From NCBI RefSeq assembly GCF_017837635.1, contig NZ_JAGJRS010000007.1, positions 1 through 64,000 of the forward strand: a stretch of 64,000 bases of DNA, in the 5' to 3' direction. The notes under the pieces were generated by a model. It worked only from the letters and a program-made list of their open reading frames with translations. It had not been told where the DNA came from and ran no database searches. This DNA comes from Frateuria flava (GTDB lineage Bacteria > Pseudomonadota > Gammaproteobacteria > Xanthomonadales > Rhodanobacteraceae). A program made the position numbers and the translations under genes. This document shows, in pieces, positions 12,776 to 37,237 of this stretch; position 1 is the first letter of the stretch; the number at the start of each line of letters is the position of its first letter.

Positions 12776-12789
12776 CTGACCCAGATCAG
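12776..12789. promoter_or_regulatory. Fnr/Anr-like binding site for fdxA
   Basis: CTGAC-CCAG-ATCAG has the 5-4-5 dyad layout of the Fnr/Anr consensus TTGAT-N4-ATCAA, with the TGA/TCA core intact. Its centre is about 61 bases from the fdxA start codon. Confidence 0.7.
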
Positions 12790-12957
12790 GCCTGCCGGAT
12801 GCAGCCGGATCATCCACAGGTTCACCGTGCGGCGACGCGCCAGCCGGAACATGCGGCACGAGGCTTCTGCAGACGCCAGCCCAGACCCGGCCACCACGTG
12901 CGAATGGCCTGTGCGACAACCGACCGCATCGCTGGCGCGTCCGTTTGCCGCGGCGCT

Positions 12958-12971
12958 TTGACTCAGGTCAA
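12958..12971. promoter_or_regulatory. Fnr/Anr-like binding site for the cco operon
   Basis: TTGAC-TCAG-GTCAA is a symmetric dyad close to the Fnr/Anr consensus. Its centre is about 60 bases before the ccoN start codon, which fits a class II position near -41.5 plus a short leader. Confidence 0.85.
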
Positions 12972-13024
12972 GCGAAGTGAACGGCCGCGCCCGGAAAATA
13001 GGCGGCATTTCCCGGGAAACATCC

Positions 13025-14491
13025 ATGCCCAACACCGAGTATTACAACGACAAGGTCGTGCGTCAGTTCCTCTTGGCGGCGGCCGTGTGGGGCATCGTCG
13101 GCATGTCGGTCGGCGTGCTCGCCGCCGCGCAGCTGGCGTGGCCCCTGTTCAACTTCGACACCTCCTGGCTGACCTTCAGCCACATCCGCCCCGACCACAC
13201 CTTTGGCGTGATCTTCGCCTTCGGCGGCTCGGCGCTGATCGGTACCTGCTACTACGTGGTCCAGCGCACCGGCCACACGCGGCTGGCCTATCCGAAGCTG
13301 GCCGCATTCACCTTCTGGGGCTGGCAGGTCGCCTGTCTGGCAGCAATGATCACCATGCCGCTGGGCCTGACCCAGAGCAAAGAGTACGCCGAGCCGGAAT
13401 GGTGGGTCGACATCATCATCGCGGTGGTGTGGGTGAGCCTCGGCGTGGTGTTCTTCGGCACGCTGGCGCGCCGGCGCATCCGCCACATCTACGTGGCCAA
13501 CTGGTACTACGGCGCGTGGATCATCGCGGTCGGCCTGCTGCACATCGTCAACAACCTGGTGATCCCGGTCTCGCTGTCGAAGTCCTACCCGATCTACTCC
13601 GGCGTGGTCGATGCGATGGTGCAGTGGTGGTACGGCCACAACGCGGTGGCGTTCTTCCTGACCGCCGGCTTCCTCGGGATGATGTACTACTTCGTGCCGC
13701 GCCAGGCGCAGCAGCCCTTGTGGAGTTACCGCTTCTCGATCGTGAACTTCTGGGCACTGATCTCGGTATACATGTGGGCCGGCGCGCACCACCTGATGTA
13801 CACCGCGCTGCCGGACTGGGTGCAGTCGGTCGGCATGGCCTTCTCGCTGGTGCTGCTGATGCCCAGCTGGGGCTCGGCCGCCAACGGCCTGATGACCTTC
13901 AACGGCTCCTGGCCGAAGCTCAAGGTGGACCCCGCCGCCAAGTTCATGGTGCTGGCGCTGGTGTTCTACGCGGGCAGCACGTTCGAGGGCTCGATGATGG
14001 CGGTCAAGACCGTCAACCAGCTCTCGCACTACACCGACTGGACCGTGGCGCACGTGCACAACGGCGCGCTCGGCTGGGTGGCGATGATCACCATCGGCTC
14101 GCTCTACGCCATGGCGCCACGCGCGCTCGGGCAGCCGAAGATGTATTCGCAGAAGGCGATGGAGTGGCACTTCTGGCTGCACTGCTTCGGCGTGGTGCTG
14201 TACGTCGGCTCGATGTGGGTCGCCGGTGTCACCGAAGGCCTGATGTGGCGCGCCACGCTGCCCGACGGTTCGCTCACCTACCCGTTCATCGACAGCCTGC
14301 TGGCGATCCAGCCGGCGTACTGGACGCGCTGGTTCGCCGGCGTGGTGATCCTCGTGGGCATGGTGCTGATGGCGTGGAACCTGTGGCACACCGCGGCCGA
14401 TGCGCGCGCGCGGCTGATCAAGCCGATCCCGGTGCCGATCCCCGAACCCGACCCGCACCAGGTACCCGAACCGCTGCCGAGTGTGGGCTGA
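13025..14491 (+). CDS. ccoN: cbb3-type cytochrome c oxidase subunit I
   Basis: Catalytic subunit of the high-affinity oxygen reductase that carries low-spin haem b and the haem b3-CuB centre. The 488-residue protein has about a dozen hydrophobic helices. The His ligands expected of the family appear in [16 protein letters not shown] near residue 53, [17 protein letters not shown] near residue 204, [13 protein letters not shown] near residue 255, and [14 protein letters not shown] near residue 338. The start at MPNTEYYND was taken over a frame-extending ATG 48 bases upstream. It is the first gene of a tightly packed operon with ccoO. Confidence 0.97.
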
Positions 14492-14504
14492 GGAACACGA
14501 CCAG

Positions 14505-15158
14505 ATGGCTTACAAGCATTTTGAAATCATCGAGAAGAATGCCGCGCTGCTGGGCATCCTCACCGCGATCATGGTGTCGATCGGCGGCCTGGCCGAGATC
14601 ACCCCGCTGTTCATGGAAGCCCATGCGGTGAAGGCGCCGGTGGGGGTCAAACCGTACGATCCGCTGCGCCTGGCCGGCAAGGACATCTACGTGCGCGAAG
14701 GCTGCTATCTGTGCCACTCGCAGATGATCCGCGCGCTGCGCGCCGAAACCCAGCGCTACGGGCACTTCTCCACCGCGCAGGAGTCGGTCTATGACCGGCC
14801 GTTCCAGTGGGGCTCCAAGCGTACCGGGCCGGACCTGGCGCGCGTGGGCGGCAAGTACACCGACGAGTGGCAGCGCCTGCACCTGGAGAACCCGCGCCAG
14901 GTCGTGCCGCAGTCGAACATGCCGCAATACGACTGGCTCGAGCACAACACCATCAATGCCGAGGACATCCAGGCGCGCATGCGCGTGCTGCGCAAGCTGG
15001 GCGATCCGTACACCGACGCCGACATCGCCAGCGCCCCCAAGGCGGTGGCCGGCAAGACCGAGATGGACGCACTGATCGCCTACCTGCAGGGCCTGGGCAT
15101 CCAGAACGAGCCGGCGGCCACCGTGCCGGTGCCCGTCGGCCACGGAGCCACGCCATGA
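14505..15158 (+). CDS. ccoO: cbb3-type cytochrome c oxidase mono-haem subunit II
   Basis: Membrane-anchored c-type cytochrome subunit (217 residues). An N-terminal anchor helix ([18 protein letters not shown]) is followed by the haem site [12 protein letters not shown] near residue 67, and by the methionine ligand region ([11 protein letters not shown] near 143). These are standard CcoO features. It starts 13 bases after ccoN, and its stop overlaps the ccoQ start in an ATGA arrangement, which implies translational coupling. Confidence 0.97.
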
Positions 15159-15376
15159 ACCATCCCATGATGAATCCGTTCTGGGGCCACCTGACCGGCA
15201 TCGTCACGGTGGTGCTGATGCTGGTGTTCATCGGCATCTGGATCTGGGCGTGGCGCAAGCGTCACCGCTCGACCTTCAAGCGGATGAGCGAGCTTCCCAT
15301 GGAAGACAAACCAGAGGGTCCGGTGCCGGGCAACCGCACGGGCGCAGACAAGAACGACAAAGGTGGGCAGCCGTGA
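15155..15376 (+). CDS. ccoQ: cbb3 oxidase small subunit CcoQ
   Basis: A 73-residue single-helix protein ([19 protein letters not shown]) with a basic patch after the helix ([10 protein letters not shown]) and a hydrophilic tail, as in CcoQ/FixQ, which stabilises the oxidase complex. It begins by ATGA overlap with ccoO, and its stop overlaps the GTG start of ccoP. It is identified by position and topology, because the family is poorly conserved. Confidence 0.9.
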
Positions 15377-16290
15377 GCGCGGGTTGGTCGTTGTGGGTGA
15401 TGTTCCTGGTGGTGCTGAATTTCGGCATCACGTTCCTGCTGTTCCTGTGGGCGCCGCGGGCGAAGATCCCGACGCTGCCGGACGACACCAGCGGCCATGT
15501 GTGGGCGCACGGCACGATCCGCGAAGGCGTGCGCAACCTGCCGCTGTGGTGGCTGCTGCTGTCCGGCTCGATGTTCGTGGCCGGCGCGCTCTACCTGGTG
15601 TTCTACCCCGGCTTCGGCAACCACAAGGGCACGCTCGGCTGGACCGCGCACGGCGAGCTGGCGCGTGACGAGGCCGCCAACAACGCCAAGCTGGACGACC
15701 TGATCGAGCGCTTCCGCAAGTACCCGGTCGAGCAGCTGGCCGAGGACCCGGCCGCGCAGCAAATGGGCGAGCGCCTGTTCGTGGACAACTGCGCCGCCTG
15801 CCACGGTCGCGGCGGCTACGGCAACGTCAAGCTGGGCGCGCCCAGCCTGATCGACGACGACTGGCTCTACGGCGGCAGCGGCCAGGACATCCTCACCTCG
15901 ATCCGCGAGGGCCGCGCCGGCATGATGCCGCCGTGGTCCAGCCTGGGCGAGGACAACGTCAAGAACCTGGCCAACTACGTGCTGAGCCTTTCCGGCTCGT
16001 CGCACGACGAGGGCCGCGCGCACGCCGGCCAGGCCCTGTTCACCACCTGCGCCGCCTGCCACGGCCCGCAAGGCAAGGGCAACCCGGCGCTGGGCGCACC
16101 CAATCTCACCGACAGGATCTGGCTGCACGGCGGCAAGTTCGAGGACATCGTGCGCACCATCGGCGGTGGCCGCCAAGGGCAGATGCCCGCGTGGAGCAAG
16201 CGCCTGAACGACGACCAGACCCGCGTGCTCGCCGCCTACGTCTACCATCTCTCGCACCAGGGCGATGCAGCAGCACAAGCCTCCCGCTGA
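15373..16290 (+). CDS. ccoP: cbb3-type cytochrome c oxidase di-haem subunit III
   Basis: A 305-residue subunit that passes electrons to CcoO and CcoN. There are two N-terminal membrane helices (about residues 5-25 and 57-77) with the usual PLWWLLLSGSMFVAGALYLV segment. Two cytochrome c domains follow, with haem sites CAACHGRGGYG near residue 139 and CAACHGPQGKG near residue 226 and downstream methionines (GRAGMMPPW, GQMPAW). The start is GTG, read through the overlap GTGA with the ccoQ stop. The longer upstream frame is the shadow of ccoQ. Confidence 0.96.
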   Translation: MSAGWSLWVMFLVVLNFGITFLLFLWAPRAKIPTLPDDTSGHVWAHGTIREGVRNLPLWWLLLSGSMFVAGALYLVFYPGFGNHKGTLGWTAHGELARDEAANNAKLDDLIERFRKYPVEQLAEDPAAQQMGERLFVDNCAACHGRGGYGNVKLGAPSLIDDDWLYGGSGQDILTSIREGRAGMMPPWSSLGEDNVKNLANYVLSLSGSSHDEGRAHAGQALFTTCAACHGPQGKGNPALGAPNLTDRIWLHGGKFEDIVRTIGGGRQGQMPAWSKRLNDDQTRVLAAYVYHLSHQGDAAAQASR

Positions 16291-16561
16291 GACGTCCGCC
16301 GCGGCCGACGCCTGGTACCGGCAGCCCGTGCTGTGGCTCGGGGCGGTGATCTTCGCCGCCTCCCTGGCCGGTTGCATCTGGACGATCGTGCTCGGCGCGC
16401 GCCACGCGGACCTGCCGCTGGACATGACCGAGCGCCCGCATACGTTGCTGGACATGCCGATGCATGCGCCCGCACGGGAAACGCAGGGGACCGGCCAGCA
16501 GGCCGGCGCCAAGGCCCCGTCGTCGCGGGACGCGACCGCTACCCCCGGGCAACGGCCATGA
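16265..16561 (+). CDS. Small membrane protein in the cco operon (FixH/CcoH-like)
   Basis: A 98-residue protein with one hydrophobic helix (WLGAVIFAASLAGCIWTIVLG, about residues 23-43) after a WYRQP motif, then a Pro-rich hydrophilic tail. The position between ccoP and ccoI is where ccoG and ccoH/fixH lie in other bacteria, and the WYRQP-helix start resembles the beginning of FixH. It is much shorter than normal FixH (about 150-170 residues) and lacks its periplasmic domain. It overlaps ccoP by 26 bases and ccoI by an ATGA, so it is surely in the same transcript. Its role in oxidase assembly is inferred from position. Confidence 0.65.
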   Translation: MQQHKPPAETSAAADAWYRQPVLWLGAVIFAASLAGCIWTIVLGARHADLPLDMTERPHTLLDMPMHAPARETQGTGQQAGAKAPSSRDATATPGQRP

Positions 16562-18789
16562 ACGCTGCCGGCGCGCACGCGGCGTGGCTGCATCCGCGCC
16601 TCGCCGCGCAGGTGATCCGGCCGCGCCGCGACGGTCGGGCGGAAATCGCGCTGCGCGTGGAAGGGCTCACCGACCCACGCCAGGTGCTGCGCCTGGACGA
16701 GCGCCTGCATGCCCTGCCCGGCGTCGCCCGCGTGGCGATCGATGCCCGCGCGCAGCGCGCGCGCGTCGTGTGGAACCCTGACCGCCTGGGCCTGCCGCAA
16801 CTGCTCGACGCGTTCGGTGCCGAGCAGTGCAGCGCGCGGCCGCTGCGCCGCGAACACATCGACGATACGCGCAGCAGCGAGGCCAACGACGCGCTCAAGC
16901 GCCTGCTCGTCGCCGGCATGTGCGCGATGCAGGTGATGACCTACGCCTTCGTCATGTACATCGGCGTGGTCGACTTCGTCGACTTCACCACGCGCGGGCT
17001 GTTCCGCTGGCTCAGCCTGCTCACCACCGCGCCGGTGATCGCCTATTCGGCGCAACCGTTCCTGCTTGGCGCCTGGCGCGAAGTACGCACGCGCCGGCTC
17101 GGCGTGAACCTCACCGTGTCGCTGGCCGTGCTGCTGACCTTCGGCACCAGCGTGTGGAGCACCGTGCGCGGGCACGGCGAGATCTACTTCGATTCGGTCA
17201 GCATGTTCGTCTTCCTGCTGCTGGCCGCGCGCCATGTCGAACTGCGCGCGCGGCACGCCAGCGGCGCATTGGGCGAGGCCGCGCAGGACGCCACCCCGCT
17301 GCTGGCCGAGCGTCGCCGCGCCGACGGCAGCCTGGAAACCGTGGCTGCGCTGGAACTGGTTCCGGGCGACCGCGTGCGCATCGCCGAAGGCGGCACCGTC
17401 CCGGCCGACGGCGTGCTGGAAAGCTACGCCGTCGAGGTCGACGAGGCGTTGCTCTCGGGCGAATCGCGCCCGCGCCGGCGCCAGCGCGGCGAGCGCCTGG
17501 TCGCCGGCTCGGTCGTGCTGGGCAGCCCGGCCGAACTGCGCGTGGAGCACAGCGGCGAGGACACCACCGCCGCGCGCCTGGGTCAGCTGGCCGGCCGTGC
17601 GCGTCAGGCCCGGCCCGGCGACGAGGGCGCCGACCGGGATGCCACCCGCTTTGTGCTGCGCGTGCTGGTGCTGACGGTGCTCACCGCGCTTGCCTGGCTG
17701 TGGATCGACCCCGTGCGTGCCTTCGATGCGGCCGTGGCGGTGCTGGTGGTCGCCTGCCCCTGTGCCTTCGCGCTGACCCGCCCCGCCGCCGTCACCCGCG
17801 CGCTCGCGGTGCTCGCCAGGCGCGGCGTGCTGGTCACCGAACCGGCTGCGCTCGACCGGCTCGCCCGGGTCAACTACGCCCTGTTCGACAAGACCGGCAC
17901 GCTGACCACGCCCTGGCTCGAACCCGATGCGGTCGAGCCGCTGCGCGACGGGCTGGCACCGGAACAGGCGCTGCGCCTGGCCGCCGCGCTGGCGCGCGAA
18001 AGCACCCATCCGTTGGCGCTGGCACTGGCCGCCGCGTGGACGGGCGACACGCCGGCAGCACGCGATCTCATGGTCACCGCCGCCGCGGGAATCGATGCCG
18101 AGGTGGAGGGTCGCTCCCTGCGCCTGGGCCGTCCGGATTTCGCCCTGGCACCCAGTGGTTGCGCCGCCCCGACCAGCGTCGCCGGTGCCCTGCTGCTTGC
18201 CGATCGCCGCGGCCCGCTGGCGGCGTTTCACGTGAGCGAGGCACCGCGTAGCGATGCGGTGGACACGCTGCAGGCGCTGCGTAGCGAGGGCATCGTTACC
18301 GTGCTCGCCAGCGGCGACACCCGCGCCCGCGTGTCGCCGGTCGCCGACGCGCTGGGCGTCAAGCGCTGGTCGGGACGCCAGTCGCCCGCCGACAAGCTCG
18401 CGCTGCTGCAGGTGGCGCGCGCGCAGGGCCACGTCACGCTCGCGGTCGGCGACGGCAGCAACGACGCCCCGGCGCTCGCCGGGGCGGATGTGTCCGCCGT
18501 GCTCGCCTCCGGCACCGATCTGGCGCAGGCGCATGCCGACCTGCTGCTCGCGCGCGGACGCCTGGACGGCCTGGTGCAGGCCCGTCACGTCGCCCGCCAG
18601 CTCGCCCACGTGGTAACGCAGGGCCGTCGCTGGTCGCTGGCCTACAACCTGCTGGCGGTGCCGTTCGCTGCCGCCGGACTGGTGCCGCCTTGGCTGGCGG
18701 CGATCGGCATGTCGGTCAGCTCGCTGGTGGTCGTGCTCAATGGCCTGCGCGTGGGCCGCGTACCCGTCCGCCCGGCGCTGCGCGCATGA
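16558..18789 (+). CDS. ccoI: Copper-transporting P1B-type ATPase for cbb3 assembly
   Basis: Exports copper needed to build the CuB centre of cbb3 oxidase (CcoI/FixI group). The 743-residue protein has an N-terminal ferredoxin-like metal-binding-domain fold (about 15-90), then membrane helices. Visible ATPase motifs are SGES near residue 301, the intramembrane CPC in VACPCAFALTRP near residue 399, DKTGTLT near residue 444, STHPLA near residue 482, and GDGSNDAPAL near residue 631. The N-terminal domain has no CXXC, so the usual copper-binding cysteines are missing. It is coupled to the preceding and following genes by ATGA overlaps. Confidence 0.94.
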   Translation: MNAAGAHAAWLHPRLAAQVIRPRRDGRAEIALRVEGLTDPRQVLRLDERLHALPGVARVAIDARAQRARVVWNPDRLGLPQLLDAFGAEQCSARPLRREHIDDTRSSEANDALKRLLVAGMCAMQVMTYAFVMYIGVVDFVDFTTRGLFRWLSLLTTAPVIAYSAQPFLLGAWREVRTRRLGVNLTVSLAVLLTFGTSVWSTVRGHGEIYFDSVSMFVFLLLAARHVELRARHASGALGEAAQDATPLLAERRRADGSLETVAALELVPGDRVRIAEGGTVPADGVLESYAVEVDEALLSGESRPRRRQRGERLVAGSVVLGSPAELRVEHSGEDTTAARLGQLAGRARQARPGDEGADRDATRFVLRVLVLTVLTALAWLWIDPVRAFDAAVAVLVVACPCAFALTRPAAVTRALAVLARRGVLVTEPAALDRLARVNYALFDKTGTLTTPWLEPDAVEPLRDGLAPEQALRLAAALARESTHPLALALAAAWTGDTPAARDLMVTAAAGIDAEVEGRSLRLGRPDFALAPSGCAAPTSVAGALLLADRRGPLAAFHVSEAPRSDAVDTLQALRSEGIVTVLASGDTRARVSPVADALGVKRWSGRQSPADKLALLQVARAQGHVTLAVGDGSNDAPALAGADVSAVLASGTDLAQAHADLLLARGRLDGLVQARHVARQLAHVVTQGRRWSLAYNLLAVPFAAAGLVPPWLAAIGMSVSSLVVVLNGLRVGRVPVRPALRA

Positions 18790-18998
18790 ACGTCCTGCTG
18801 GTGCTGATCCCGGTCACCGGCCTGGTCGTACTGATCGCGGTGGCGCTGTTCTTCTGGGCTGCCAACCACCAGCAGTTCGACGACCTGGACAGCCCCGCCG
18901 TGCTGCCGCTGATGGAGGACGAAACCGTCCCAGGGCCGGCGGCCGACACGGCACCTGCACCTTCCCTTTCCCCCGATAGCAAAGGAGACACTCCGTGA
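18786..18998 (+). CDS. ccoS: cbb3 oxidase maturation protein CcoS
   Basis: A 70-residue protein with an N-terminal membrane helix ([21 protein letters not shown]) and the family pattern [17 protein letters not shown] just after it. CcoS is needed for cofactor insertion into CcoN. It starts by ATGA overlap with ccoI and ends inside the GTG start of the azurin gene. The Pro-rich tail is longer than in many homologues. Confidence 0.93.
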
Positions 18999-19447
18999 AA
19001 CGTCGTCTGTTCGCTTTCGCCCTGCTTGGCCTGGTCGCCGCGCCGACCTGGGCCGCCTCCAACTGCTCGACCACCATCCAGGGCAACGACGCCATGCAGT
19101 TCGACCAGAAGTCGATCGTGGTGCCCAACACCTGCAAGCAGTTCACCGTGACGCTCACGCACGTCGGCAAACTGCCCAAGGCCGCGATGGGCCACAACTT
19201 CGTGGTATCGAGCACCGCCGACGAGCCGGGCGTGGTGGCCGACGGCGCCAAGGCCGGCATCGACAACAACTACCTCAAGCCCGGCGACAGCCGCGTCATC
19301 GCGCACACCAGGATCATCGGCGGTGGCGAGAGTGCCTCGACCACGTTCAAGGTCGACGCGCTCAAGCCCGGCCAGGACTATGAGTTCTTCTGCTCGTTCC
19401 CCGGCCATGCCGCGCTGATGAAGGGCACGATCAGCCGCGCCAAGTAG
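18995..19447 (+). CDS. azu: Azurin (type I blue copper protein)
   Basis: A 150-residue periplasmic electron carrier. A signal peptide (cleaved after TWA) precedes the mature sequence, which starts [16 protein letters not shown]. The type I copper ligands can be placed: His in MGHNFVVS, Cys and His in [14 protein letters not shown], and the axial Met in the same segment. The two early Cys would form the usual disulfide. It begins at GTG inside the ccoS stop, with AAAGGAG upstream, so it is part of the oxidase transcript. Likely partners are the cbb3 oxidase and NirK. Confidence 0.96.
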
Positions 19448-19458
19448 GATGAAGAAAC

Positions 19459-19487
19459 GCCGCGCCGCGGACGTTCCGCGGCGCGGC
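19459..19487 (+). other. Strong GC hairpin between azurin and truncated haemoglobin genes
   Basis: A perfect 12-base-pair stem with loop ACGTT sits 12 bases after the azurin stop codon. No T run follows, so a classical terminator is unlikely. It may protect the 3' end of the oxidase-azurin mRNA or reduce read-through into the next gene. Confidence 0.7.
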
Positions 19488-19501
19488 CCACCGGCAAAGA
19501 C

Positions 19502-19906
19502 ATGCGCGAAACCACGCTTACCGAATCCGCGATCGCCCGGCTGGTCGACCGCTTCTACGACAAGGTCACCGCCGATGCGGTGATCGGCCCGGTGTTCAAC
19601 GCCGTCGTGCACGACTGGCCCGAACACAAGCGCCTGCTGACCCGCTTCTGGTGTTCGGTGGCACTGGGTGCAGCCAGCTACCGCGGCAACCCGATGGCGG
19701 TGCATCGGCCGCTGCCGATCCGCGCCGAACATTTCGACCACTGGCTGGCGCTGTGGCGCGCCACCTGCGCCGAGGAACTGGACGAGGCCGGCGCGGCACA
19801 GATGGCGGAGTACGCCGAACGCATCGGCCGCAGCCTGAAATACGGTCTGGGCTTGAATCCCGACGCCCGCGGCATCGGCGTGCCGTTGATTTCCGTCCGC
19901 CGCTGA
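19502..19906 (+). CDS. Group III truncated haemoglobin
   Basis: A 134-residue haem protein of the trHbIII family. It shows the IARLVDRFYDKVTADAVIGPVF start, the WPEHKRLLTRFW segment, MAVHRPLPI near residue 65, which carries the proximal or distal His pattern of this group, and HFDHWLALW with the second His. Group III globins are often linked to nitric oxide or oxygen handling in microaerobes. The gene follows azurin by about 55 bases and may share its transcript. No separate Fnr-like site is visible upstream. Confidence 0.9.
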   Translation: MRETTLTESAIARLVDRFYDKVTADAVIGPVFNAVVHDWPEHKRLLTRFWCSVALGAASYRGNPMAVHRPLPIRAEHFDHWLALWRATCAEELDEAGAAQMAEYAERIGRSLKYGLGLNPDARGIGVPLISVRR

Positions 19907-20621: not shown

Positions 20622-20645
20622 GACGCGTTCTCCTGATGGTGAGAC

Positions 20646-22556: not shown

Positions 22557-22560
22557 GGGT

Positions 22561-23340: not shown

Positions 23341-23343
23341 CGG

Positions 23344-27181: not shown

Positions 27182-27198
27182 CCTCCCTGGAGAGCTTC

Positions 27199-27636: not shown

Positions 27637-27640
27637 CGGC

Positions 27641-30157
27641 ATGGTCACCACCGAGCGCGCGCAGGCCGCCGTCCGCGAAGGCCTGGACCCGGCCGAAGCG
27701 GCGCGCCGCCTGGCCGCGCACGGTCCCAACCTGTTGCCCGGCAGCACGCCCAAGAGCTTCGGCGCGATCGTGCTGGGGGTGTTGTCCGAGCCGATGTTCC
27801 TGATGCTGCTGTGCGCCGGCGGCCTGTACCTGGCGCTGGGCGACCGCGCCGAGGCGGCGTTCCTGCTCTCGGCCGTGTTCGTGGTGATCGGCATCACCCT
27901 GCTGCAGGAGCGCAAGACCCAGCGGGCGCTCGAATCCCTGCGCGAGCTCTCCGCGCCGCGTGCGCTGGTGATCCGCGGTGGCGAAGAGCTGCGCGTGGCC
28001 GGTGCCGAGGTGGTACCGGGTGACCTGCTGTTGCTGCGCGAGGGCGATCGCATCGCGGCCGACGCCACTCTGCTGGAAGGCCGGCTCGAAGTGGACGAAT
28101 CGCTGCTGACCGGCGAATCGGTGCCGGTGGCGCGCGAACCCGGGGGTGAGGCCGCGGTACATGCCAGCACCGTGGTGACGCGCGGAGTCGGCATCGCCCG
28201 CGTCGGCGCGACCGGCGGCGCGACCGCGGTCGGCCGCATCGGCGAAGCCCTGGCCACGACGCAGGAAGCACCCAGCGGCCTGCAACGCGCCTCGCGCCGG
28301 CTGATCCGCCAGCTCGCCATCGGCGGCCTGGCGCTGGCTGCGCTGTACGCGCTGCTGTCCTGGCTGTGGGACGGCCGCGGCCCGCTGGAAAGCCTGCTCG
28401 GCGGCATCGCGCTGGCGATGGCGATCCTGCCCGAGGAGATCCCGGTGATCCTCACCGTGTTCCTCGCGCTGGGCGCCTGGCGCATCTCGCGGCGCAAGGT
28501 GCTTACCCGGCGCGTACCGGCGGTGGAGGCGCTGGGCGCCATCTCGGTGCTGGCGGTGGACAAGACCGGCACGCTCACCCAGAACCGCATGCAGGTGGCC
28601 GAACTGGCGGTCGACGGACAGCGCTTCGTGGACGCCGGCGCCACCGAGCTGGCCGAGACGTTCCACCGGCTGGTCGAGTTCGCGATGCTGGCCACGCCCA
28701 GCGACCCGTTCGATCCGATGGAGAAGGCCATCCAGCATTTCGGCCTGCACTGGCTGGTGCACACCGAGCACGTGCACGCGGACTGGTCAGCCGAGACCGA
28801 ATACGCGCTCTCGCCGCAGATCCTGGCGATGACGCGGGTGTTCCCCTGCGACACCTGCACGCGCCACCTGCTCGCCACCAAGGGCGCACCCGAAGCGGTG
28901 ATCGACCTGTGCCACCTGGCCGTCGACCGGGCCAGGTCGATACTCGCCGAGGTCGAGGCGATGGGCGCGCGCGGCCTGCGCGTGCTCGCCGTGGCCCGCG
29001 GCCACTGGACCGGCGAGGCCTGGCCGGCCAGCCAGCACGACTTCGACTTCGAGTTCCTCGGCCTGGTCGGCCTGGCCGATCCGCCGCGGCCGGACGTGCC
29101 GGCGGCGATCGCCGAATGCCGCGCCGCCGGCGTGCGCATCCTGATGATGACCGGCGACCACCCGACCACCGCGCGCGCGATCGCGCGCCAGGTCGGTTTC
29201 GGCGAGCGCACCGAGGTGCTCACCGGCGCCGACCTGGCCGTGCTGGACGACGCCACGCTGCGCGAGCGCCTGCGCCACGTCGACCTGTGCGCCCGGCTCA
29301 AGCCCGAGCAGAAGCTGCGCCTGGTGCAGTTGCTGCGCGCGGACGGCGACGTGGTGGCGATGACCGGCGACGGCGTCAACGACGCGCCGGCGCTGAAGGC
29401 CGCCGACGTCGGCATCGCCATGGGCGAACGCGGCACCGACGTGGCGCGCGAGGCGGCCGCGCTGGTTCTGCTGGACGACAGCTTCGCCAGCATCGTGGCG
29501 GCGATCCGCCAGGGCCGGCGCATCTACGACAACATCGCCAAGGCGACCGGCTTCGTGTTCGCCGTGCACATGCCGATCATCGCGCTGGCGCTGGTGCCCA
29601 CCCTGCTGCACTGGCCGGTGCTGCTGATGCCGGTGCACATCGTGCTGCTGGAACTGCTGATCGACCCGGCGTGCTCGATCGTGTTCGAAGCCGAACCGGA
29701 AGCGGGCGACGTGATGACGCGCCCCCCCCGCGGGGCGGGCGAATCGCCGTTCGCCGCCCGCGCGCTGGGTCGCGCGGTCGTGCAGGGGCTGGGCGTGGCG
29801 GCGGTGCTGCTGCCCGGCTTCGGCCTGATGCTGCACTACGGCGTGGACGCTGCCCAGGCACGCGGCGTGGTGTTCGCGTCGCTGCTGAGCGGGTTGTTCC
29901 TGCTGATCCTGGCCAACCGGCATCCGACCCGCGCGGTGCTGGCGCGGCCGGCGCGGGGCAATCGCTGGATCGTCCGCATGGCCGGCGCGCTGGCGCTGAT
30001 GCTGGCAGCCGCCTTCGGCGTGCCGTTCCTGCGCGCCGTGATGGACATCGCCCTGCCCGGCCCGGCCGCGCTCGGCGCCCTGCTGGCGATGCTCGTCGGG
30101 ATCCTCGCCTGGCTGGAGGCGTTGCGCTGGATGTCGCGGAGGCCTCCGCACGCGTGA
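27641..30157 (+). CDS. Cation-transporting P-type ATPase
   Basis: An 838-residue P-type ATPase of the P2/P3 kind rather than the heavy-metal kind. An N-terminal cation-ATPase domain (LDPAEAARRLAAHGPN) is followed by TGES in LLTGESVPVARE near residue 162, the intramembrane PEEIPVIL near residue 264, DKTGTLTQNRM near residue 307, KGAPEAV near residue 414, MTGDGVNDAPALKAADVGIA near residue 574, and six C-terminal helices. The substrate (Ca, Mg, Mn or H) cannot be told. It follows UspA by four bases, so it is in the same operon downstream of an Fnr/Anr-like site. Confidence 0.9.
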   Translation: MVTTERAQAAVREGLDPAEAARRLAAHGPNLLPGSTPKSFGAIVLGVLSEPMFLMLLCAGGLYLALGDRAEAAFLLSAVFVVIGITLLQERKTQRALESLRELSAPRALVIRGGEELRVAGAEVVPGDLLLLREGDRIAADATLLEGRLEVDESLLTGESVPVAREPGGEAAVHASTVVTRGVGIARVGATGGATAVGRIGEALATTQEAPSGLQRASRRLIRQLAIGGLALAALYALLSWLWDGRGPLESLLGGIALAMAILPEEIPVILTVFLALGAWRISRRKVLTRRVPAVEALGAISVLAVDKTGTLTQNRMQVAELAVDGQRFVDAGATELAETFHRLVEFAMLATPSDPFDPMEKAIQHFGLHWLVHTEHVHADWSAETEYALSPQILAMTRVFPCDTCTRHLLATKGAPEAVIDLCHLAVDRARSILAEVEAMGARGLRVLAVARGHWTGEAWPASQHDFDFEFLGLVGLADPPRPDVPAAIAECRAAGVRILMMTGDHPTTARAIARQVGFGERTEVLTGADLAVLDDATLRERLRHVDLCARLKPEQKLRLVQLLRADGDVVAMTGDGVNDAPALKAADVGIAMGERGTDVAREAAALVLLDDSFASIVAAIRQGRRIYDNIAKATGFVFAVHMPIIALALVPTLLHWPVLLMPVHIVLLELLIDPACSIVFEAEPEAGDVMTRPPRGAGESPFAARALGRAVVQGLGVAAVLLPGFGLMLHYGVDAAQARGVVFASLLSGLFLLILANRHPTRAVLARPARGNRWIVRMAGALALMLAAAFGVPFLRAVMDIALPGPAALGALLAMLVGILAWLEALRWMSRRPPHA

Positions 30158-30259: not shown

Positions 30260-31612
30260 CTACCGGCGCGCAGGCGCGGCGGCATGGGCACGCGGGAGAT
30301 CGAGCGTCACCCGTGCACCGCCCAGCGGAGCGCGGTCGAAGGCGAGATGGCCGTGGTGCAGCGTGGTGATCGCCTGCACGATCGACAGTCCCAGGCCGCT
30401 GCCCTCGCCGAGGCTGCCGGCCGGGCGATGGAAGCGTTCGCCCAGCCGCGAGGGATCGGCAAAGCCGCTGCCGCTGTCGTCCACGACCAGCCGCACGCCG
30501 GCGGCCGTACCGCTCACGCGCACCGCGATGCGGCCACGAACGGGCGCGTGGCGCAGCGCGTTGTCGAGCAGGTTGGCCAGCGCGATGCCGAGCAGTCCGG
30601 CGCTGGCGCGCAGGCGGGTGTCGCCCTCGCTGTCGAGGGAAAGCTCGAGCTGCCGCACGGCGGCCCGCTCGCTCGCCTCGCGCAGGGCGTCACCGGCCAG
30701 CTCGGCCAGGTCCAGTGGCCCGGCGTCGTCCAGTTCACTGGCCTGCTCGACGCGGGCCAACAGCAACAGTTGCCCAACCAGCCGCTGCATGCGCTCCAGC
30801 GCCGCCTGCGCGCGATCCAGATGGTGCCCGCGCGGGTCGGCATCGGCACGGGCGGCCAGGTCCAGTTCCAGCCGCAGCGCGGCCAGTGGGTGGCGCAGTT
30901 CGTGCGCGGCATCGGCGGTGAAGCGGCGCTCGCGTTCCAGCGCGTGGCGCAGACGCTCGACCAGCCGGTCCACCGCTTCGGTGAAGGGCGCCAGTTCGAG
31001 CGGCACGCGCGCGTCGGTGAGGATGGGCACCTGCAGCGCGTCGGCGACGTCCAGGCGCCGGCTCAACTGACGCAGCGGCGACAGTCCGCCGCGCAGGCCG
31101 GCGTAGACGATAGGCGGCAGCAGCAGCAACAGCCCGAGCAGTGCGAACAGCGCCGGCGCCGCGATCCGGCGCAGCATCTCGTCGCGCTCGTCCAGCGGCG
31201 CGGCGACCTGGATGGTGTAGCGACCATCGGCGTCAGCACGTTCGAGCACGCGCCAGCGGCGGCCGTGGTAATCGACGGTACGCAGCGGCCGCGCGGGATC
31301 GGGTGCCATTGCGGGAAAGGCGTCGCTGTCGACCAGCACGCGGCCGCCCGCGTCGCGCAGCACGATCGTCGGGCGGTGCGCCTGGCGGTCGGAATCGATC
31401 AACCGTTCCGGCAGGCGCGCGCCGCGGAGCGACGCCGGTTCGGCCGGCACCGTGGCGAGTACTGCGGCAGCCGTGCGCACCAGCATCTGGTCGAAGATCT
31501 CGTCGATCTCGTGCAGCGCGCGCCAGCCCATCCAGCCGGCCGCGGCCAGCCATACGGCGAGCACGCCGGCGGCCAGCCGCGCGACCAGGCGACGGTTGAG
31601 CGAAGGGCGCAT
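30260..31612 (-). CDS. Sensor histidine kinase (OmpR-system type)
   Basis: A 450-residue membrane kinase. A first helix (about 10-28) and a periplasmic sensor region are followed by a second helix (LFALLGLLLLLPPIVY near residue 155), a HAMP-like linker, then the phosphoacceptor box DAAHELRHPLAALRLEL near residue 235. The ATPase motifs NLLDNALRHAP, DDSGSGF and GSGLGLSI follow. It starts by an ATGA overlap with the response-regulator stop, which also settles the start codon. It is the last gene of a PepSY-cytochrome b561-regulator-kinase operon. The signal is unknown. Confidence 0.92.
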   Translation of the reverse strand: MRPSLNRRLVARLAAGVLAVWLAAAGWMGWRALHEIDEIFDQMLVRTAAAVLATVPAEPASLRGARLPERLIDSDRQAHRPTIVLRDAGGRVLVDSDAFPAMAPDPARPLRTVDYHGRRWRVLERADADGRYTIQVAAPLDERDEMLRRIAAPALFALLGLLLLLPPIVYAGLRGGLSPLRQLSRRLDVADALQVPILTDARVPLELAPFTEAVDRLVERLRHALERERRFTADAAHELRHPLAALRLELDLAARADADPRGHHLDRAQAALERMQRLVGQLLLLARVEQASELDDAGPLDLAELAGDALREASERAAVRQLELSLDSEGDTRLRASAGLLGIALANLLDNALRHAPVRGRIAVRVSGTAAGVRLVVDDSGSGFADPSRLGERFHRPAGSLGEGSGLGLSIVQAITTLHHGHLAFDRAPLGGARVTLDLPRAHAAAPARR

Positions 31613-32283
31613 CAGGGCGCGTCCACCGGGGAGGCGAGCGCGTAGCCGATGCCGCGCAGGGTGCGGATCCAGTCGGCGCCGAGCTTGTGCCGCAGGCGGT
31701 GGACGTGCACTTCCACCGCGTTGCTGGCGACCTCGCGGCCCCAGTCGTAGAGCGCCTCTTCCAGTTGCGCGCGGGAGTAGGCGCGGCCGGGGTGGCGGGC
31801 GAGCAGCTCGAGCATGGCGAACTCGCGCGCGGTCAGTTCCAGCGGCACGCCGGCCAAGGTGGCGCGGTGCGCGGCGGGGTCCAGCTCCAGCGCGCCGACG
31901 CGGATCACCGGCTCGGGCTGCCCATCGGCGCGGCGCAGCAGCGCGCGCAGGCGGGCGGCCAGCTCGTCCAGGTGCACCGGCTTGACCACGTAGTCGTCGG
32001 CGCCGGCATCCAGCCCGGCGACGCGGTCGGCCAGCGCGTCGCGGGCGGTGAGCAGCAGCACCGGCGTGGCGTCCTTGCGTCGGCGCAGCGCGGCGATGAT
32101 CGCCGGGCCGCTGCTGCGCGGCAGGTTCCAGTCCAGCACGGCCGCGGCGTAGGCGGTGTCCGCCAGCGCCGCGGCCGCCTGCGCGCCGTCGGTGATCCAG
32201 TCGACCGCGTAGCCGAGCTGGCGCAGGCCGTCGGCGAGCGCGCGGCCCAGCGCCAGGTCGTCCTCGGCCAGCAGGATGCGCAC
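31612..32283 (-). CDS. OmpR/PhoB-family response regulator
   Basis: A 223-residue regulator. The receiver domain (about 1-115) has the acidic pair in LLAEDDLALG, the phosphorylation Asp in AAVLDWNLPRSSG near residue 51, and the Lys in YVVKPVHLDELAARL near residue 101. The winged-helix DNA-binding domain (about 125-220) has LTAREFAMLELLARHPG and the recognition segment NAVEVHVHRLRHKLG. It resembles the QseB/TctD group. It is seven bases after the cytochrome b561 gene and overlaps the kinase gene. Confidence 0.94.
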   Translation of the reverse strand: MRILLAEDDLALGRALADGLRQLGYAVDWITDGAQAAAALADTAYAAAVLDWNLPRSSGPAIIAALRRRKDATPVLLLTARDALADRVAGLDAGADDYVVKPVHLDELAARLRALLRRADGQPEPVIRVGALELDPAAHRATLAGVPLELTAREFAMLELLARHPGRAYSRAQLEEALYDWGREVASNAVEVHVHRLRHKLGADWIRTLRGIGYALASPVDAP

Positions 32284-33271: not shown

Positions 33272-33285
33272 TTGACGGCGGTCAA
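33272..33285. promoter_or_regulatory. Fnr/Anr-like binding site for the beta-CASP nuclease
   Basis: TTGAC-GGCG-GTCAA is a perfectly symmetric dyad, centred about 59 bases before the next start codon. Confidence 0.82.
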
Positions 33286-33337: not shown

Positions 33338-34729
33338 ATGCTCGTCTACAGCTGCCACGGTGCCGCCAAGCAGGTCACCGGTTCGTGCCACCTGATCGAA
33401 TGCAACGGCCGCCGCGTGCTGGTCGATTGCGGCATGTTCCAGGGCGACCGCGCGGCCGAACAGGCCAACGCCGAGCCATTCGGCTTCGATCCGGCCACCA
33501 TCGACGCCTTGCTGCTCACCCATGCGCACCTGGATCACTGCGGGCGCATCCCGCGGCTGGTGCGGCAAGGTTTCCGCGGGCGCATCCTGGCCACCTCGGC
33601 CACCCGCGAGCTGGCGCGGCTGGTCCTGCTTGACGCCGCCGGCCTGCAGGAGGAGGACGCCCGCCGCGCGGCACGCAGCGACCGCCGCGGCGAGGAGGCG
33701 GTAGAGCCGCTGTACACCATCGACGACGCGCTGCACGCGATCGACTTCTTCGAACCGGGGCTGGGCTACGGGCATGACATCGACGTGGCTCCCGGGATCC
33801 GCGCGCGCTTCTTCGACGCCGGGCACATCCTGGGGTCGGCGCAAGTGCTGCTGACCCTGGGCGAGGGTGCCGGGCAGCGCACGATGCTGTTCTCCGGCGA
33901 CCTGGGCAACCCGGGCCGGCCACTGCTGCGCGACCCGGTCCCCGCGCCGGCGGCGGACTACGTGGCGATGGAATGCACCTATGGCGACCGTCCGCACCGC
34001 TCGGTGCCCGACTCGGTGGTCGAGCTGTACCAGGCGATCCGCGAGACGGTGGGGCGGCGGGGCAACGTGGTGATTCCCACCTTCGCGCTGGAGCGCACGC
34101 AGGAGATCCTCTATTACCTGCACCTGGGCCTGCGCGACGGTCAGGTTCCACCGCACGTGCGGGTGTTCCTCGATTCGCCGATGGCGATCTCCGCCACCGA
34201 GATCTACCGACGCCACCCGGAATGTTTCGACGCGCAGTTCCTTCAGGTGTTGCAGCACGGCGACCCGTTCGCGATGCCCGGCCTGCATTTCACCCGCAGC
34301 ACGCAGGAATCGATGGCGATCAACGCGATCGACGGCGGCGCGATCATCCTGGCCGGCTCGGGCATGTGCACCGGCGGGCGCGTGCGCCATCACCTGAAGC
34401 ACAACCTGTGGCGCGAGCGCAGCAGCGTGGTGTTCGTCGGCTACGCCGCACAGGGCACGCTGGCGCGGCGGATCATCGACGGCGCCGCCAGCGTGCGGGT
34501 GCTCAACCAGGAGATCCCGGTACGCGCGCAGGTGTGGACGATCAACGGCTTCTCCGCCCACGCCGGCCGCCCCGACCTGCTGGACTGGCTGGGGCGCGCG
34601 CCACGGCGGCGGGTGTTCCTGGTGCACGGCGAGTACGACCGGGGCATGCGCGGCATGGGCGAGGCGCTGACGGGGCTGGGCGTGGATTGGCAGATGCCGG
34701 GGATGGGCGAGCCCATCCGGCTGGACTGA
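33338..34729 (+). CDS. MBL-fold beta-CASP RNA-processing exonuclease-like protein
   Basis: A 463-residue metallo-beta-lactamase/beta-CASP protein (CPSF73/YsgB class). Metal-binding motif THAHLDHCGRIP near residue 59, GHILGSAQVLL near residue 164, the Asp in FSGDLGNPGRP near residue 187, the beta-CASP region from about 240, and the C-terminal FSAHAGRPDLL and FLVHGEYDRG all appear. Substrate could be RNA or DNA. The family includes nucleases under anaerobic control in pseudomonads. Here a perfect Fnr/Anr-like dyad precedes it. The start at MLVYSCHGAAKQVTGS is set by homology. Confidence 0.9.
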   Translation: MLVYSCHGAAKQVTGSCHLIECNGRRVLVDCGMFQGDRAAEQANAEPFGFDPATIDALLLTHAHLDHCGRIPRLVRQGFRGRILATSATRELARLVLLDAAGLQEEDARRAARSDRRGEEAVEPLYTIDDALHAIDFFEPGLGYGHDIDVAPGIRARFFDAGHILGSAQVLLTLGEGAGQRTMLFSGDLGNPGRPLLRDPVPAPAADYVAMECTYGDRPHRSVPDSVVELYQAIRETVGRRGNVVIPTFALERTQEILYYLHLGLRDGQVPPHVRVFLDSPMAISATEIYRRHPECFDAQFLQVLQHGDPFAMPGLHFTRSTQESMAINAIDGGAIILAGSGMCTGGRVRHHLKHNLWRERSSVVFVGYAAQGTLARRIIDGAASVRVLNQEIPVRAQVWTINGFSAHAGRPDLLDWLGRAPRRRVFLVHGEYDRGMRGMGEALTGLGVDWQMPGMGEPIRLD

Positions 34730-35007: not shown

Positions 35008-35769
35008 TCAGTCCGGCAGCAGGCTGCGGCCGATATGGTGCAGGCCGGCCGGGTCCAGGATCAGCAGCTGGCGCCCTTCCACCTGGATCAGGTTCTGCGC
35101 GCGGAAGCGGCTCAGCACGCGGCTGACCGTCTCGGCGGCCAGCCGCAGGTAGTTGGCGATGTCGCCGCGCGACATGCTGAGCTGGAACTGCGTGCCGGAG
35201 AAACCACGCGCGGCGTAACGCTGGCCCAGGTCGGTGAGGAACGCGGCCATGCGCTCGTCGGCGCTGTGGTCGCCGGCCAGCAGGCTGGCCGAGCCCAGCT
35301 CCTTGCTGAGCAGCCGGAACAGGTGGCTCTGCACCGCCGGCATGCGCGCGGCCAGCGCGCTCATCGCCGGGAACGAGAAGCGGCAGAAGTAGGAGGTCTC
35401 CAGCGCGATCGCGTCGCACGGGAAGTGCTCGGGGTAGATCGCGTTCAGGCCGATCACTTCGCCGGGCAGGTAGAAGCCGAGCACCTGCTCGCGGCCTTCC
35501 TTGTCGACCATGCTGGTCTTCACCGTGCCCGAGCGCACCGCGAAGATCGCGCGGAACGGGTTGCCGGTGCGGAACACGTACTCGCCCGCGCGGAACGGCC
35601 CGACGTGCTCGACCAGGCAATGCAGTTCGCGAAGCTCGAGCTTGCCGTAGCCCACCGCCTGGCAGGCGCCGGCGAACGCGCAGGTACGGCAGAAGTGGGC
35701 CTCGTCGCCGTCGTCGGCGATCGGGCTGGGTGGTTCAGGCAGGCGGCCCGCCTGGTTTTCCAAACGCAT
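35008..35769 (-). CDS. anr: Fnr/Anr-type oxygen-sensing regulator
   Basis: A 253-residue Crp/Fnr-family activator that binds DNA as a dimer when its oxygen-labile [4Fe-4S] cluster is intact. The N-terminal cluster cysteines are C-x2-C-x5-C in FCRTCAFAGACQ. The fourth is the Cys in LETSYFCRFSF, at the place of Cys122 in Escherichia coli Fnr. A cyclic-nucleotide-binding-like domain follows, then a helix-turn-helix whose recognition helix keeps the E-x2-S-R of Fnr in RLAAETVSRVL, so TTGAT-type sites are expected. The ATG at 35769 was preferred to 35850 because the longer form would overlap hemN. It follows hemN by 20 bases. Confidence 0.93.
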   Translation of the reverse strand: MRLENQAGRLPEPPSPIADDGDEAHFCRTCAFAGACQAVGYGKLELRELHCLVEHVGPFRAGEYVFRTGNPFRAIFAVRSGTVKTSMVDKEGREQVLGFYLPGEVIGLNAIYPEHFPCDAIALETSYFCRFSFPAMSALAARMPAVQSHLFRLLSKELGSASLLAGDHSADERMAAFLTDLGQRYAARGFSGTQFQLSMSRGDIANYLRLAAETVSRVLSRFRAQNLIQVEGRQLLILDPAGLHHIGRSLLPD

Positions 35770-35789
35770 CAGCAACGCCTTGTGGCCGG

Positions 35790-37190
35790 TCAGATCGTGC
35801 GCGAGAAGCGGCGCGGCGCTTCCTCGGCATGCAGGTAGGCATCGAAACACATCGCGATGCTACGCAGCAACAGCCGCCCTCGTGCGGTCACCCGGATCAT
35901 GCACCCTTCCAGCGTCACCAGACCGTCGTCGGCCAGCACGCGCAGGCGCGCCAGCTCGGCGGCGAAGTATTCGTCGAACAGCAGCCGGTGGCGCGCGCCG
36001 AACAGACGCATGTCGACCTCGCCGTGGCACATCAGCTCGCCGATCAGCGCGCGGCGGATGACGTCGTCCTCATCCAGTTGCAGGCCGCGGGCGATCGGCA
36101 GGCGGCCGGCGTCCAGCGCGGCGTAATAGCCGGTCAGGTCGCGCGCGTTCTGGCTGTAGGTGTCGCCCACGCGACCGATGGCGCTCACGCCGAGGCCGAC
36201 GATGTCGCAGTCGCCATGGGTGGAATAGCCCTGGAAGTTGCGCTGCAGGCTGCCTTCGCGCTGGGCGCGCGCCAGTTCGTCGTCGTAGCGGGCGAAGTGG
36301 TCCATGCCGACATAGACGTAGCCGGCGGCGGAGAGCCGCTCCAGCGCGCGGCCGAACAACGCCAGGCGCGTGGCCGGGTCGGGCAGATCGTCGGCGTCGA
36401 TGTGCTTCTGCGCCTTGAACAGGTCCGGCAGGTGCGCGTAGCCGTAGACCGCGACGCGGTCGGGCTCCAGCGCGATCACTTCGGTGAGCGTGCGGTCGAA
36501 GCCGTCCAGGTTCTGTTTGGGCAGCCCGTAGATCAGGTCGACGCTGGCCGAGACGAAGCCCGATGCGCGGGCGACCTCGATCACCTCGCGCGTCTGTTCC
36601 ACGCTCTGGATGCGGTTGACCGCCTGCTGCACGGCCGGATCGAAGTCCTGGATGCCGACCGAGAGACGGTTGAAGCCCATCTCGCCCAGGCCGCGCATGT
36701 AGCCGCCGTCGGCGAAGCGCGGGTCGATCTCGATGCCGAACTCGCGCGAGCGCTCGCTGCTGAAGCTGAAGTGGCGCGCCAGCGATTCCATCAGCTCGCG
36801 CATGCGCGGCAGGTCGAGGAAGTTGGGCGTGCCGCCGCCGAAGTGCAGCTGGCGGACCGGGCGGTCGCGGTCGAACAGCGGCGCGGTCAACTCGACCTCG
36901 CGGTAGAGGCGTTCGAGGTAGCGGTCGGCCTTGGCGATCTCGCGGGTGATCACGCGGTTGCAGCCGCAGTAGAAACACGGGCTCATGCAGAAGGGCACGT
37001 GCACGTACAGCGACAGCGGGCGCGGGATCGGTTCCTCGTTGGACTGGCGGATCGCCTCGCGCAGCGCTGCCTCACCGAAGCGCGTGTGGAACTGCGGCGC
37101 GGTCGGGTAGCTGGTGTAGCGGGGGCCGGCGGTGTCGTAGCGGGCGATCAGCGCCGGATCGAAGGCGGGAGCGGCAATGGCGTGGTTCAT
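35790..37190 (-). CDS. hemN: Oxygen-independent coproporphyrinogen III oxidase
   Basis: Radical-SAM enzyme that makes protoporphyrinogen IX from coproporphyrinogen III without oxygen, needed for haem in anaerobic cells. The 466-residue protein shows GPRYTSYPTAPQFH near residue 20, the radical-SAM cysteines in CMSPCFYCGCNRVI near residue 65 (C-x3-C-x2-C), GGGTPNFL near residue 113 and the C-terminal HemN extension. It starts after an Fnr/Anr-like site that is nearly consensus, and it precedes anr on the same strand, so Anr probably controls its own transcript. Confidence 0.96.
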   Translation of the reverse strand: MNHAIAAPAFDPALIARYDTAGPRYTSYPTAPQFHTRFGEAALREAIRQSNEEPIPRPLSLYVHVPFCMSPCFYCGCNRVITREIAKADRYLERLYREVELTAPLFDRDRPVRQLHFGGGTPNFLDLPRMRELMESLARHFSFSSERSREFGIEIDPRFADGGYMRGLGEMGFNRLSVGIQDFDPAVQQAVNRIQSVEQTREVIEVARASGFVSASVDLIYGLPKQNLDGFDRTLTEVIALEPDRVAVYGYAHLPDLFKAQKHIDADDLPDPATRLALFGRALERLSAAGYVYVGMDHFARYDDELARAQREGSLQRNFQGYSTHGDCDIVGLGVSAIGRVGDTYSQNARDLTGYYAALDAGRLPIARGLQLDEDDVIRRALIGELMCHGEVDMRLFGARHRLLFDEYFAAELARLRVLADDGLVTLEGCMIRVTARGRLLLRSIAMCFDAYLHAEEAPRRFSRTI

Positions 37191-37223
37191 GGGGCCAGTG
37201 TGCCGGGGTGGTGCGGAGGGCTC

Positions 37224-37237
37224 TTGATCCGGGTCAA
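37224..37237. promoter_or_regulatory. Fnr/Anr-like binding site for hemN-anr
   Basis: TTGAT-CCGG-GTCAA carries one perfect consensus half-site and sits 34 bases upstream of the hemN start codon. The short distance suggests a short leader. Confidence 0.85.

Follow-up and report, generated by a model that had tools for sequence, protein, structure and literature searches.

The linkage of fnr or anr genes to hemN, cco or other operons that carry FNR boxes has been published (PMC6588701, PMC5934665, PMC7713065), and DNR boxes have been reported at denitrification genes (PMC1274295). Given this published linkage and the published class II boxes, the kind of system reported here is already known. 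Here we examine the first 64,000 nucleotides of contig NZ_JAGJRS010000007.1 of Frateuria flava (GCF_017837635.1; genome of 3.68 Mb on 40 contigs), hereafter the window, in which the gene for a putative FNR-type regulator, Anr, lies among eight FNR boxes. We propose, with a probability of roughly 0.86, that this stretch is the anr neighbourhood of this Rhodanobacteraceae branch, comprising Anr, seven target promoters beside it and the promoter of its own operon, and that it would work by class II activation under low oxygen. About eight promoters are very probably turned on by Anr when oxygen runs out. What is new is the local gene set, the predicted leaderless start of one transcript and the box subtypes. 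Among the matches listed in our literature searches, no title concerned a study of an FNR-type regulon in this family, and among the matches listed for Anr boxes in Lysobacterales all were unrelated; the Rhodanobacter genome paper PMC8809349 contains no word beginning FNR or Crp.

The initial annotation had placed eight dyads between 12776 and 37237, and all eight are found in the sequence:

12776..12789, minus strand: FNR box of fdxA, CTGATCTGGGTCAG (read towards the gene); -10 CATGCT, predicted transcription start about 12741
12958..12971, plus strand: FNR box of ccoN, TTGACTCAGGTCAA; -10 GAAAAT, predicted transcription start about 13006; strict
21146..21159, minus strand: FNR box of CopD-like/tpx, CTGACACAGGTCAT; -10 CAAGCT
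24921..24934, minus strand: FNR box of nirK, GTGACGCAGGTCAA; -10 TAGCCT
26307..26320, minus strand: FNR box of nnrS, CTGATGCAGATCAC; -10 GAGAAT
26348..26361, plus strand: FNR box of SDR-UspA-ATPase, TTGACGCAGGTCAG; -10 CATGCT
33272..33285, plus strand: FNR box of beta-CASP, TTGACGGCGGTCAA; -10 GAGAGT; strict
37224..37237, minus strand: FNR box of hemN-anr, TTGACCCGGATCAA; -10 CACACT; strict

Only three dyads (12958, 33272 and 37224) match the strict form TTGAY-N4-RTCAA, and the remaining five are looser. At a loose grade, requiring at least four of six scored positions around a fixed GA/TC core, the 64-kb window holds 27 dyads, many of them inside genes, so the loose motif alone cannot single out the eight. 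From box centre to start codon we measure 61.5 bp for fdxA, 60.5 for ccoN, 69.5 for the CopD-like gene, 63.5 for nirK, 65.5 for SDR, 59.5 for beta-CASP (ATG at 33338), 40.5 for hemN and 63.5 for nnrS (33.5 or 42.5 with upstream ATGs). For nnrS we took the start at 26250, since the -10 overlaps with the ATG at 26280. The spacing of 59-70 claimed for six of the eight boxes stands as a range, but the count becomes seven of eight with the starts chosen here. Sequences within two mismatches of TTGATN4ATCAA number 21 in the window, against a mean of 4.0 in shuffles, as expected of sites more frequent than random background. Genome-wide, strict boxes number 25 versus 2 for the reversed pattern, with 3 of the 25 inside the window, and a looser form gives 90 versus 11, with 5 inside the interval; enrichment by genome scan is borne out, and for the box alone it is moderate (3/25, P 6e-4; 5/90, P 4e-4). 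Strict boxes exceed the reversed control in 56 of 59 family genomes.

Promoter architecture carries most of the argument. Each of the eight dyads is followed by A-N3-T, a -10-like element that sets the box centre at about -41.5, the geometry of class II FNR promoters. In 140 instances of the box, drawn from eight gene families and numbered from a box centre of -41.5, A stands at -11 in 75% and T at -7 in 71%; the two coincide in 95 of the 140, compared with 27 at an offset 1 bp nearer and a mean of 4.2 over other offsets. The consensus -10 TANNNT was rejected as too strict (no single offset gave more than 11 of 140), A-N3-T being the conserved part. With transcription starts predicted, five of the eight window sites have the exact class II spacing and three lie one bp nearer. 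The box combined with A-N3-T occurs 27 times in the genome versus once for the reversed pattern at the main spacing, and 41 versus 3 times at the shorter spacing, where many matches beyond the two islands discussed below may be background. Pooled, the two spacings yield 68 matches versus 4 reversed in 3.68 Mb (63 distinct boxes, counted by eye). All eight sites are among the 68, five at the main and three at the shorter spacing, within 24.5 kb where 0.45 would be expected; the one further match on the contig is the beta-CASP box read on the opposite strand. Finding 8 of 67 in 24,462 bp has a binomial P of 1.8e-8, an optimistic value because the interval ends were set by the sites themselves. 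At the level of sequence, this architecture settles the assignment of the boxes as class II FNR-type sites.

The same boxes recur upstream of the same genes in relatives. Upstream regions were graded as strict (at least 9/10 arm bases within 150 bp upstream) or looser (8/10). The 150-bp count dropped matches with identity below 45%, a match start beyond residue 12 or short upstream sequence, and counted near-identical loci (for example L017-L020) each; a 200-bp count and the +1 prediction excluded those with short coverage, identity below 50% or a match start beyond residue 12. Identical upstream regions entered only once into the 200-bp count, the -10 profile, the subtype count and the +1 prediction, and the -10 profile and subtype count took only upstream regions with a box. 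Because upstream sequences are related by descent, n overstates independence throughout. At the strict grade, boxes precede hemN in 39/40, nirK in 6/9, nnrS in 10/28, SDR in 2/2, beta-CASP in 5/5, ccoN in 4/6 and the CopD-like gene in 6/14. Control genes at the same grade have none (fah 0/33, hgd 0/31, hppd 0/29, ccoO 0/11, tpx 0/11, globin 0/12), as is also true of ccoI (0/5), nirV (0/10), sco (0/4), usp (0/3), the ATPase (0/2) and the cupredoxin gene (0/1); one of two response regulator upstream regions has a 9/10 match that lacks the GA core. The looser grade captures nnrS in 27/28 and fdxA in 3/4. In the wider sample of distinct 200-bp upstream regions, boxes are found before hemN in 41/41, ccoN in 16/16, SDR in 10/10, nirK in 11/12, nnrS in 24/27 and fdxA in 10/12.

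Anr itself has 253 residues, with cNMP-binding (cyclic nucleoside monophosphate) and Crp helix-turn-helix domains (Pfam HTH_Crp_2, Crp). The C-x2-C-x5-C motif, fourth cysteine and E-x2-S-R helix attributed to it can be read in the translation as CRTCAFAGAC, ETSYFC and AETVSR. The protein aligns with the iron-sulfur FNR chains of the 5cvr group (E about 1e-46), and the further cysteine aligns to the fourth FNR ligand. We take these cysteines to serve as cluster ligands and the helix residues to make the contacts of a recognition helix, by presumed analogy. Anr would thus be an oxygen-sensing regulator of the FNR family that senses through an oxygen-labile cluster. The nearest named Anr sequences among the matches listed are from Frateuria (91% identical); still nearer records may be absent from those matches. 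A second anr gene, about 64% identical and a few kb from the first, occurs in two relatives (G008:C25, G016:C34).

We propose that, without oxygen, Anr holds a [4Fe-4S] cluster, dimerises and binds each box centred at about -41.5, where it would contact RNA polymerase in class II activation. Its targets would include the high-affinity cbb3 oxidase, nitrite reduction and nitric oxide handling (nirK-nirV-sco and nnrS), thiol peroxidase, ferredoxin, oxygen-independent haem synthesis through hemN, and a survival set of SDR-UspA-ATPase and beta-CASP. Anr may also raise its own level through hemN-anr, a positive feedback suggested by the position of anr about 21 bp after hemN under an FNR box.

The short gap between the two genes is conserved: of the 56 loci with hemN and anr on the same strand (some loci overlap), 54 have them less than 300 bp from each other, and the two genes may well be co-transcribed. 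For hemN alone, the box lies consistently about 41 bp from the start codon. Taking as start codon the in-frame start nearest the homology-inferred one, the predicted +1 coincides with the A of the ATG in 22 of the 41 distinct upstream regions and lies 1 nt before it in 15, with predicted leaders of -1 nt in one, 2 nt in one and 30 nt in L072, and with no -10 in one; since either of two -10 spacings was accepted, the prediction is free by about 1 nt. In total, the predicted +1 is within 2 nt of the AUG in 39 of 41. In the window it is the A of the ATG at 37190, and the run CACACT-GGCCCC-ATG leaves no room for a Shine-Dalgarno sequence. Predicted leaders of the other seven families are mostly 18-44 nt, nnrS being an exception (5 of 14 predicted values between -8 and 0; the window start is ambiguous, at 1 or 22 nt). 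We therefore predict that hemN-anr is transcribed as a leaderless mRNA. A literature search combining 'leaderless' and 'hemN' gave, among the matches listed, only work on mycobacterial methylomes. If transcription does start there, oxygen sensing would be coupled to a special mode of translation, a proposal that is easy to test.

The boxes also fall into two subtypes. In those of fdxA, ccoN, the CopD-like gene, nirK and nnrS the spacer is often CAG (or CTG) and the outer bases are often relaxed, and those of hemN, beta-CASP and SDR have full outer bases (TT..AA arms). CAG or CTG spacers occur in 47/69 of the first group versus 5/71 of the second, and full outer bases in 16/69 versus 64/71. We drew up these two groups once the sites had been seen, and in the window SDR itself has a box of the CAG type.

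Several observations weigh against Anr as the activator of eight class II promoters. In 3 of the 59 family genomes strict boxes do not rise above the reversed control (G051 ties; G053 and G084 fall below). Anr scores 195.3 bits against a cut-off of 228 for NCBIfam Fnr (PRK11161), its best match of the list; that family models one subfamily and not the whole FNR/Anr family. At the looser grade some controls match too (fah 4/33, hgd 2/31, tpx 2/11, globin 1/12, nirV 5/10), as do 10 of 42 regions before anr itself, and in the wider sample only 20/39 distinct upstream regions of beta-CASP and 8/15 of the CopD-like gene have a box. The fdxA promoter is weak, with 0/4 at the strict grade and class II -10 spacing in only 4 of 10 boxes, and is the least secure of the targets on this sequence evidence. 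The window's own sites were among the instances from which the -10 signature was learned, which makes the argument mildly circular but leaves the reversed controls unaffected. Finally, a cysteine-less Fnr-like regulator encoded on contig C6 might bind the same boxes.

The genome encodes two further Crp-domain proteins (Pfam Crp), one on contig C5 and one, crp6, on contig C6 (L001:17198-17920). The boxes could be read mainly by crp6, or by another Crp/Fnr protein, with Anr in a minor role. We consider this unlikely, at odds well below even, and still the strongest of the alternatives: crp6, a Crp/Fnr protein without N-terminal cysteines, has a similar helix (HETVTR) and lies inside a denser box-rich island, but its orthologues (at least 60% identity) occur in 12 of 33 distinct genomes (34 searched, two identical). 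Anr is present in all 31 relatives searched, though these were chosen through Anr. As reader of the CAG-type boxes in particular, crp6 was rejected, such boxes being equally common with it (16/25) and without it (19/29); it does not account for the two subtypes.

The island around crp6 bears on the claim that the anr region is a self-contained regulon island, which we do not uphold: of the 25 strict boxes, 22 fall outside the window, and a denser island exists elsewhere. Eleven strict boxes lie in C6:1771-31749 and three near the end of contig C28, the second island being located at the C28 end (L003) and C6:1-36000 (L001, L002); the C28-C6 join is deduced from the complete congener G077, where the counterparts of these boxes are gathered in a single block (1.746-1.790 Mb) that has 14 of 22 strict boxes, whereas the anr island, some 1.2 Mb away, has 2. 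The strict-box counts of the islands were read off by eye. The second island holds several universal stress proteins, compared with one UspA in the window, together with a phosphoketolase, OsmC, an RND pump, a hybrid kinase, the cysteine-less regulator crp6 and a second nirK. About 14 kb before the first of the strict boxes on C28 lies norB with a box of its own (L164:6495-8816, L164 being C28:343001-361000). On this sequence evidence, the anr neighbourhood is one of two box-rich islands, and boxed cassettes occur in either. What stands of the overall claim is an Fnr/Anr-type regulator among class II promoters whose boxes are enriched and mostly recur in relatives.

Read along the plus strand, with minus-strand genes marked (-), the gene order is gapdh, ftr1, fdxA(-), ccoNOQP, ccoI, cupredoxin, globin, tpx(-), CopD-like(-), DUF559 protein(-), sco(-), nirV(-), nirK(-), nnrS(-), SDR, UspA, calcium-type ATPase, histidine kinase and response regulator(-), beta-CASP, anr(-) and hemN(-), followed by fah, hgd and hppd of tyrosine breakdown. 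The genes of the regulon region are:

12398..12721, minus strand: fdxA, ferredoxin (Pfam Fer4/DUF3470)
13025..16290, plus strand: ccoN, ccoO, ccoQ and ccoP, cbb3 oxidase (Pfam COX1, FixO, FixQ, FixP_N)
16333..18789, plus strand: ccoI-like heavy-metal P-type ATPase (Pfam/NCBIfam)
18995..19906, plus strand: cupredoxin and globin genes (Pfam), with no strict-grade box of their own in relatives
20121-20621, minus strand: tpx (Pfam/NCBIfam), in one unit, 20121..21083, with the CopD-like gene
20646-21083, minus strand: small membrane protein, CopD-like by the initial annotation only
21999..24864, minus strand: nirK (with a C-terminal cytochrome c domain), FGE-like nirV and SCO1 (Pfam/NCBIfam)
25000..26250, minus strand: nnrS (Pfam NnrS)
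26420..30157, plus strand: cassette of SDR, UspA and calcium-type P-type ATPase (Pfam/NCBIfam)
30260..32283, minus strand: histidine kinase and response regulator, to which none of the eight boxes belongs
33338..34729, plus strand: beta-CASP metallo-beta-lactamase nuclease (Pfam Beta-Casp/RMMBL)
35008..35769, minus strand: anr, FNR-type regulator (Pfam, motifs, NCBIfam)
35790..37190, minus strand: hemN (Pfam), first gene of hemN-anr, with anr about 21 bp after it

The CopD-like protein has no match in Pfam or NCBIfam, and its gene adjoins tpx in 11 of 17 stretches compared, the window counted among them. Between it and sco lies a DUF559 (endonuclease-like) domain on the minus strand, from 21437 to about 21815 (E 8e-36), which the initial annotation did not list. 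NirK (23344-24864) is fused to a C-terminal cytochrome c domain, and a similar fused NirK is encoded in the second island (L003:11862-13436). The cassette ATPase scores 425 of 798 bits, below the NCBIfam PMR1 cut-off. For the beta-CASP protein, the best NCBIfam matches are type VII CRISPR Cas14 (366 bits where 800 is the cut-off) and archaeal aCPSF1 (266 bits where it is 580), each falling far short; at E <= 1e-100 it has a match in 127 of the 233 genomes of the family, with identity down to about 50% in some. Open reading frames in the wrong frame (for example 15262-18609 on the minus strand, 26344, 30284, 31687, 34828, 19920 and 20659) had no match in Pfam scans.

This gene arrangement is real and recurs in relatives, and it is not unique. 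Relatives for ccoN-anr linkage were reached through Anr similarity (32 of 59 loci, 31 genomes). Among the 31, 28 have a ccoN match and 23 an orthologous ccoN (at least 80% identity); in 14 of the 23 an anr gene shares its contig at a distance of up to about 30 kb (in G011 via a second anr), and in the other 9 anr is on another contig, as read off by eye. The view that most such genes are scattered in other bacteria is accordingly too strong, given this linkage and the published cases. The recurring core is gapdh-fdxA-cco-globin-tpx-CopD-nnrS-anr, with variation (G003 shows a rearrangement, and globin, tpx and CopD are missing from the stretch seen in G024), and hemN, nirK-nirV-sco, SDR-Usp-ATPase, the two-component pair and beta-CASP are modules present or absent among relatives.

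Such differences in module content might suggest a recently acquired mobile island carrying its own regulator. This we regard as very improbable: GC content is 0.66-0.74 throughout the interval, and the stretch sits between gapdh and fah-hgd in the same order in Frateuria terrea, G077 and G062. It was rejected on GC content and conserved flanks, with no search for integrases or attachment repeats made. Weakest of all, and to our minds next to impossible, is a chance or compositional enrichment of functionless TGA/TCA dyads in a GC-rich region, which the 27 loose dyads of the window and the moderate enrichment of the box alone might suggest, but which we rejected on shuffle and reversed-pattern controls (1 and 3 matches vs 27 and 41), the fixed-spacing recurrence before the same genes and the absence of strict-grade boxes before flanking genes.

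In F. terrea (G001 and G036, taken as one genome since their coordinates are identical) the anr island lacks SDR-Usp-ATPase and beta-CASP, and the stress-protein island near crp6 contains, surrounded by boxes, homologues 77, 50, 63 and 76% identical to those of the window. The window's genes are matched as well or better by Rhodanobacter copies next to anr (SDR 86-91%, beta-CASP 74-80% identical), which makes replacement by another lineage as possible as relocation. In the beta-CASP surroundings of 34 relatives (11 to 20 kb each), 5 copies lie beside anr and 29 have no anr within the stretch. The suggestion that non-standard targets extend the regulon holds, for the predicted regulon, in the case of SDR, the P-type ATPase and beta-CASP (boxes before SDR in 10/10 and beta-CASP in 20/39); UspA has already been described as a class II Fnr target. 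Since similar boxed cassettes occur in two islands, regulon growth by relocation can be tested. A joint reading would tie these strands together: a leaderless hemN-anr transcript, conserved in Rhodanobacteraceae and several Lysobacter/Xanthomonas relatives, might allow Shine-Dalgarno-independent translation in anoxia, so that haem enzyme and sensor continue to be made while ordinary initiation falls; boxed cassettes might be exchanged between the two islands, and the two box subtypes, of which the relaxed one with a CAG spacer stands at respiratory and nitric oxide genes, might set different thresholds. We offer this as a tentative proposal, with the odds somewhat against it as a whole.

For a family of denitrifiers from soil and groundwater, our analysis maps an FNR-type regulon at promoter level (box, -10 and start), and four reports allow it to be placed among known systems. 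The lxa locus of Burkholderia cenocepacia, with several universal stress proteins and a role in low-oxygen persistence, resembles the C28/C6 island and not the window, a likeness of description rather than of sequence (PMC9104464). Sphingopyxis granuli TFA shares the consensus TTGAc/t-N4-g/aTCAA, class II boxes at -41.5 or -42.5 before ccoN, hemN2 and uspA, and boxed operons (SGRAN_3843 to 3862, by gene number) around the regulator gene fixK (SGRAN_3861); unlike Frateuria it is an Alphaproteobacterium, and its local set comprises nitrate respiration and nrdZ, not cco, nirK, nnrS or beta-CASP (PMC7713065). In Herbaspirillum seropedicae, fixNOP (cbb3) and ompW1 lie near fnr1, hemN2-fixIS is a direct Fnr1 target, usp genes are regulated and the fnr1 promoter is itself class II with a box at -42, whereas three Fnr proteins act there in a hierarchy and 'denitrif' is absent from the main text of the report (PMC5934665). 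Pseudomonas likewise has an FNR-type regulator, Anr, near hemN; Anr boxes precede hemN there, and azu belongs to the core regulon (PMC6588701). There, however, hemN flanks anr downstream and apt upstream, whereas here hemN comes first and anr follows about 21 bp later, and nnrS, nirK, SDR-Usp-ATPase and beta-CASP are local as well (PMC6588701).

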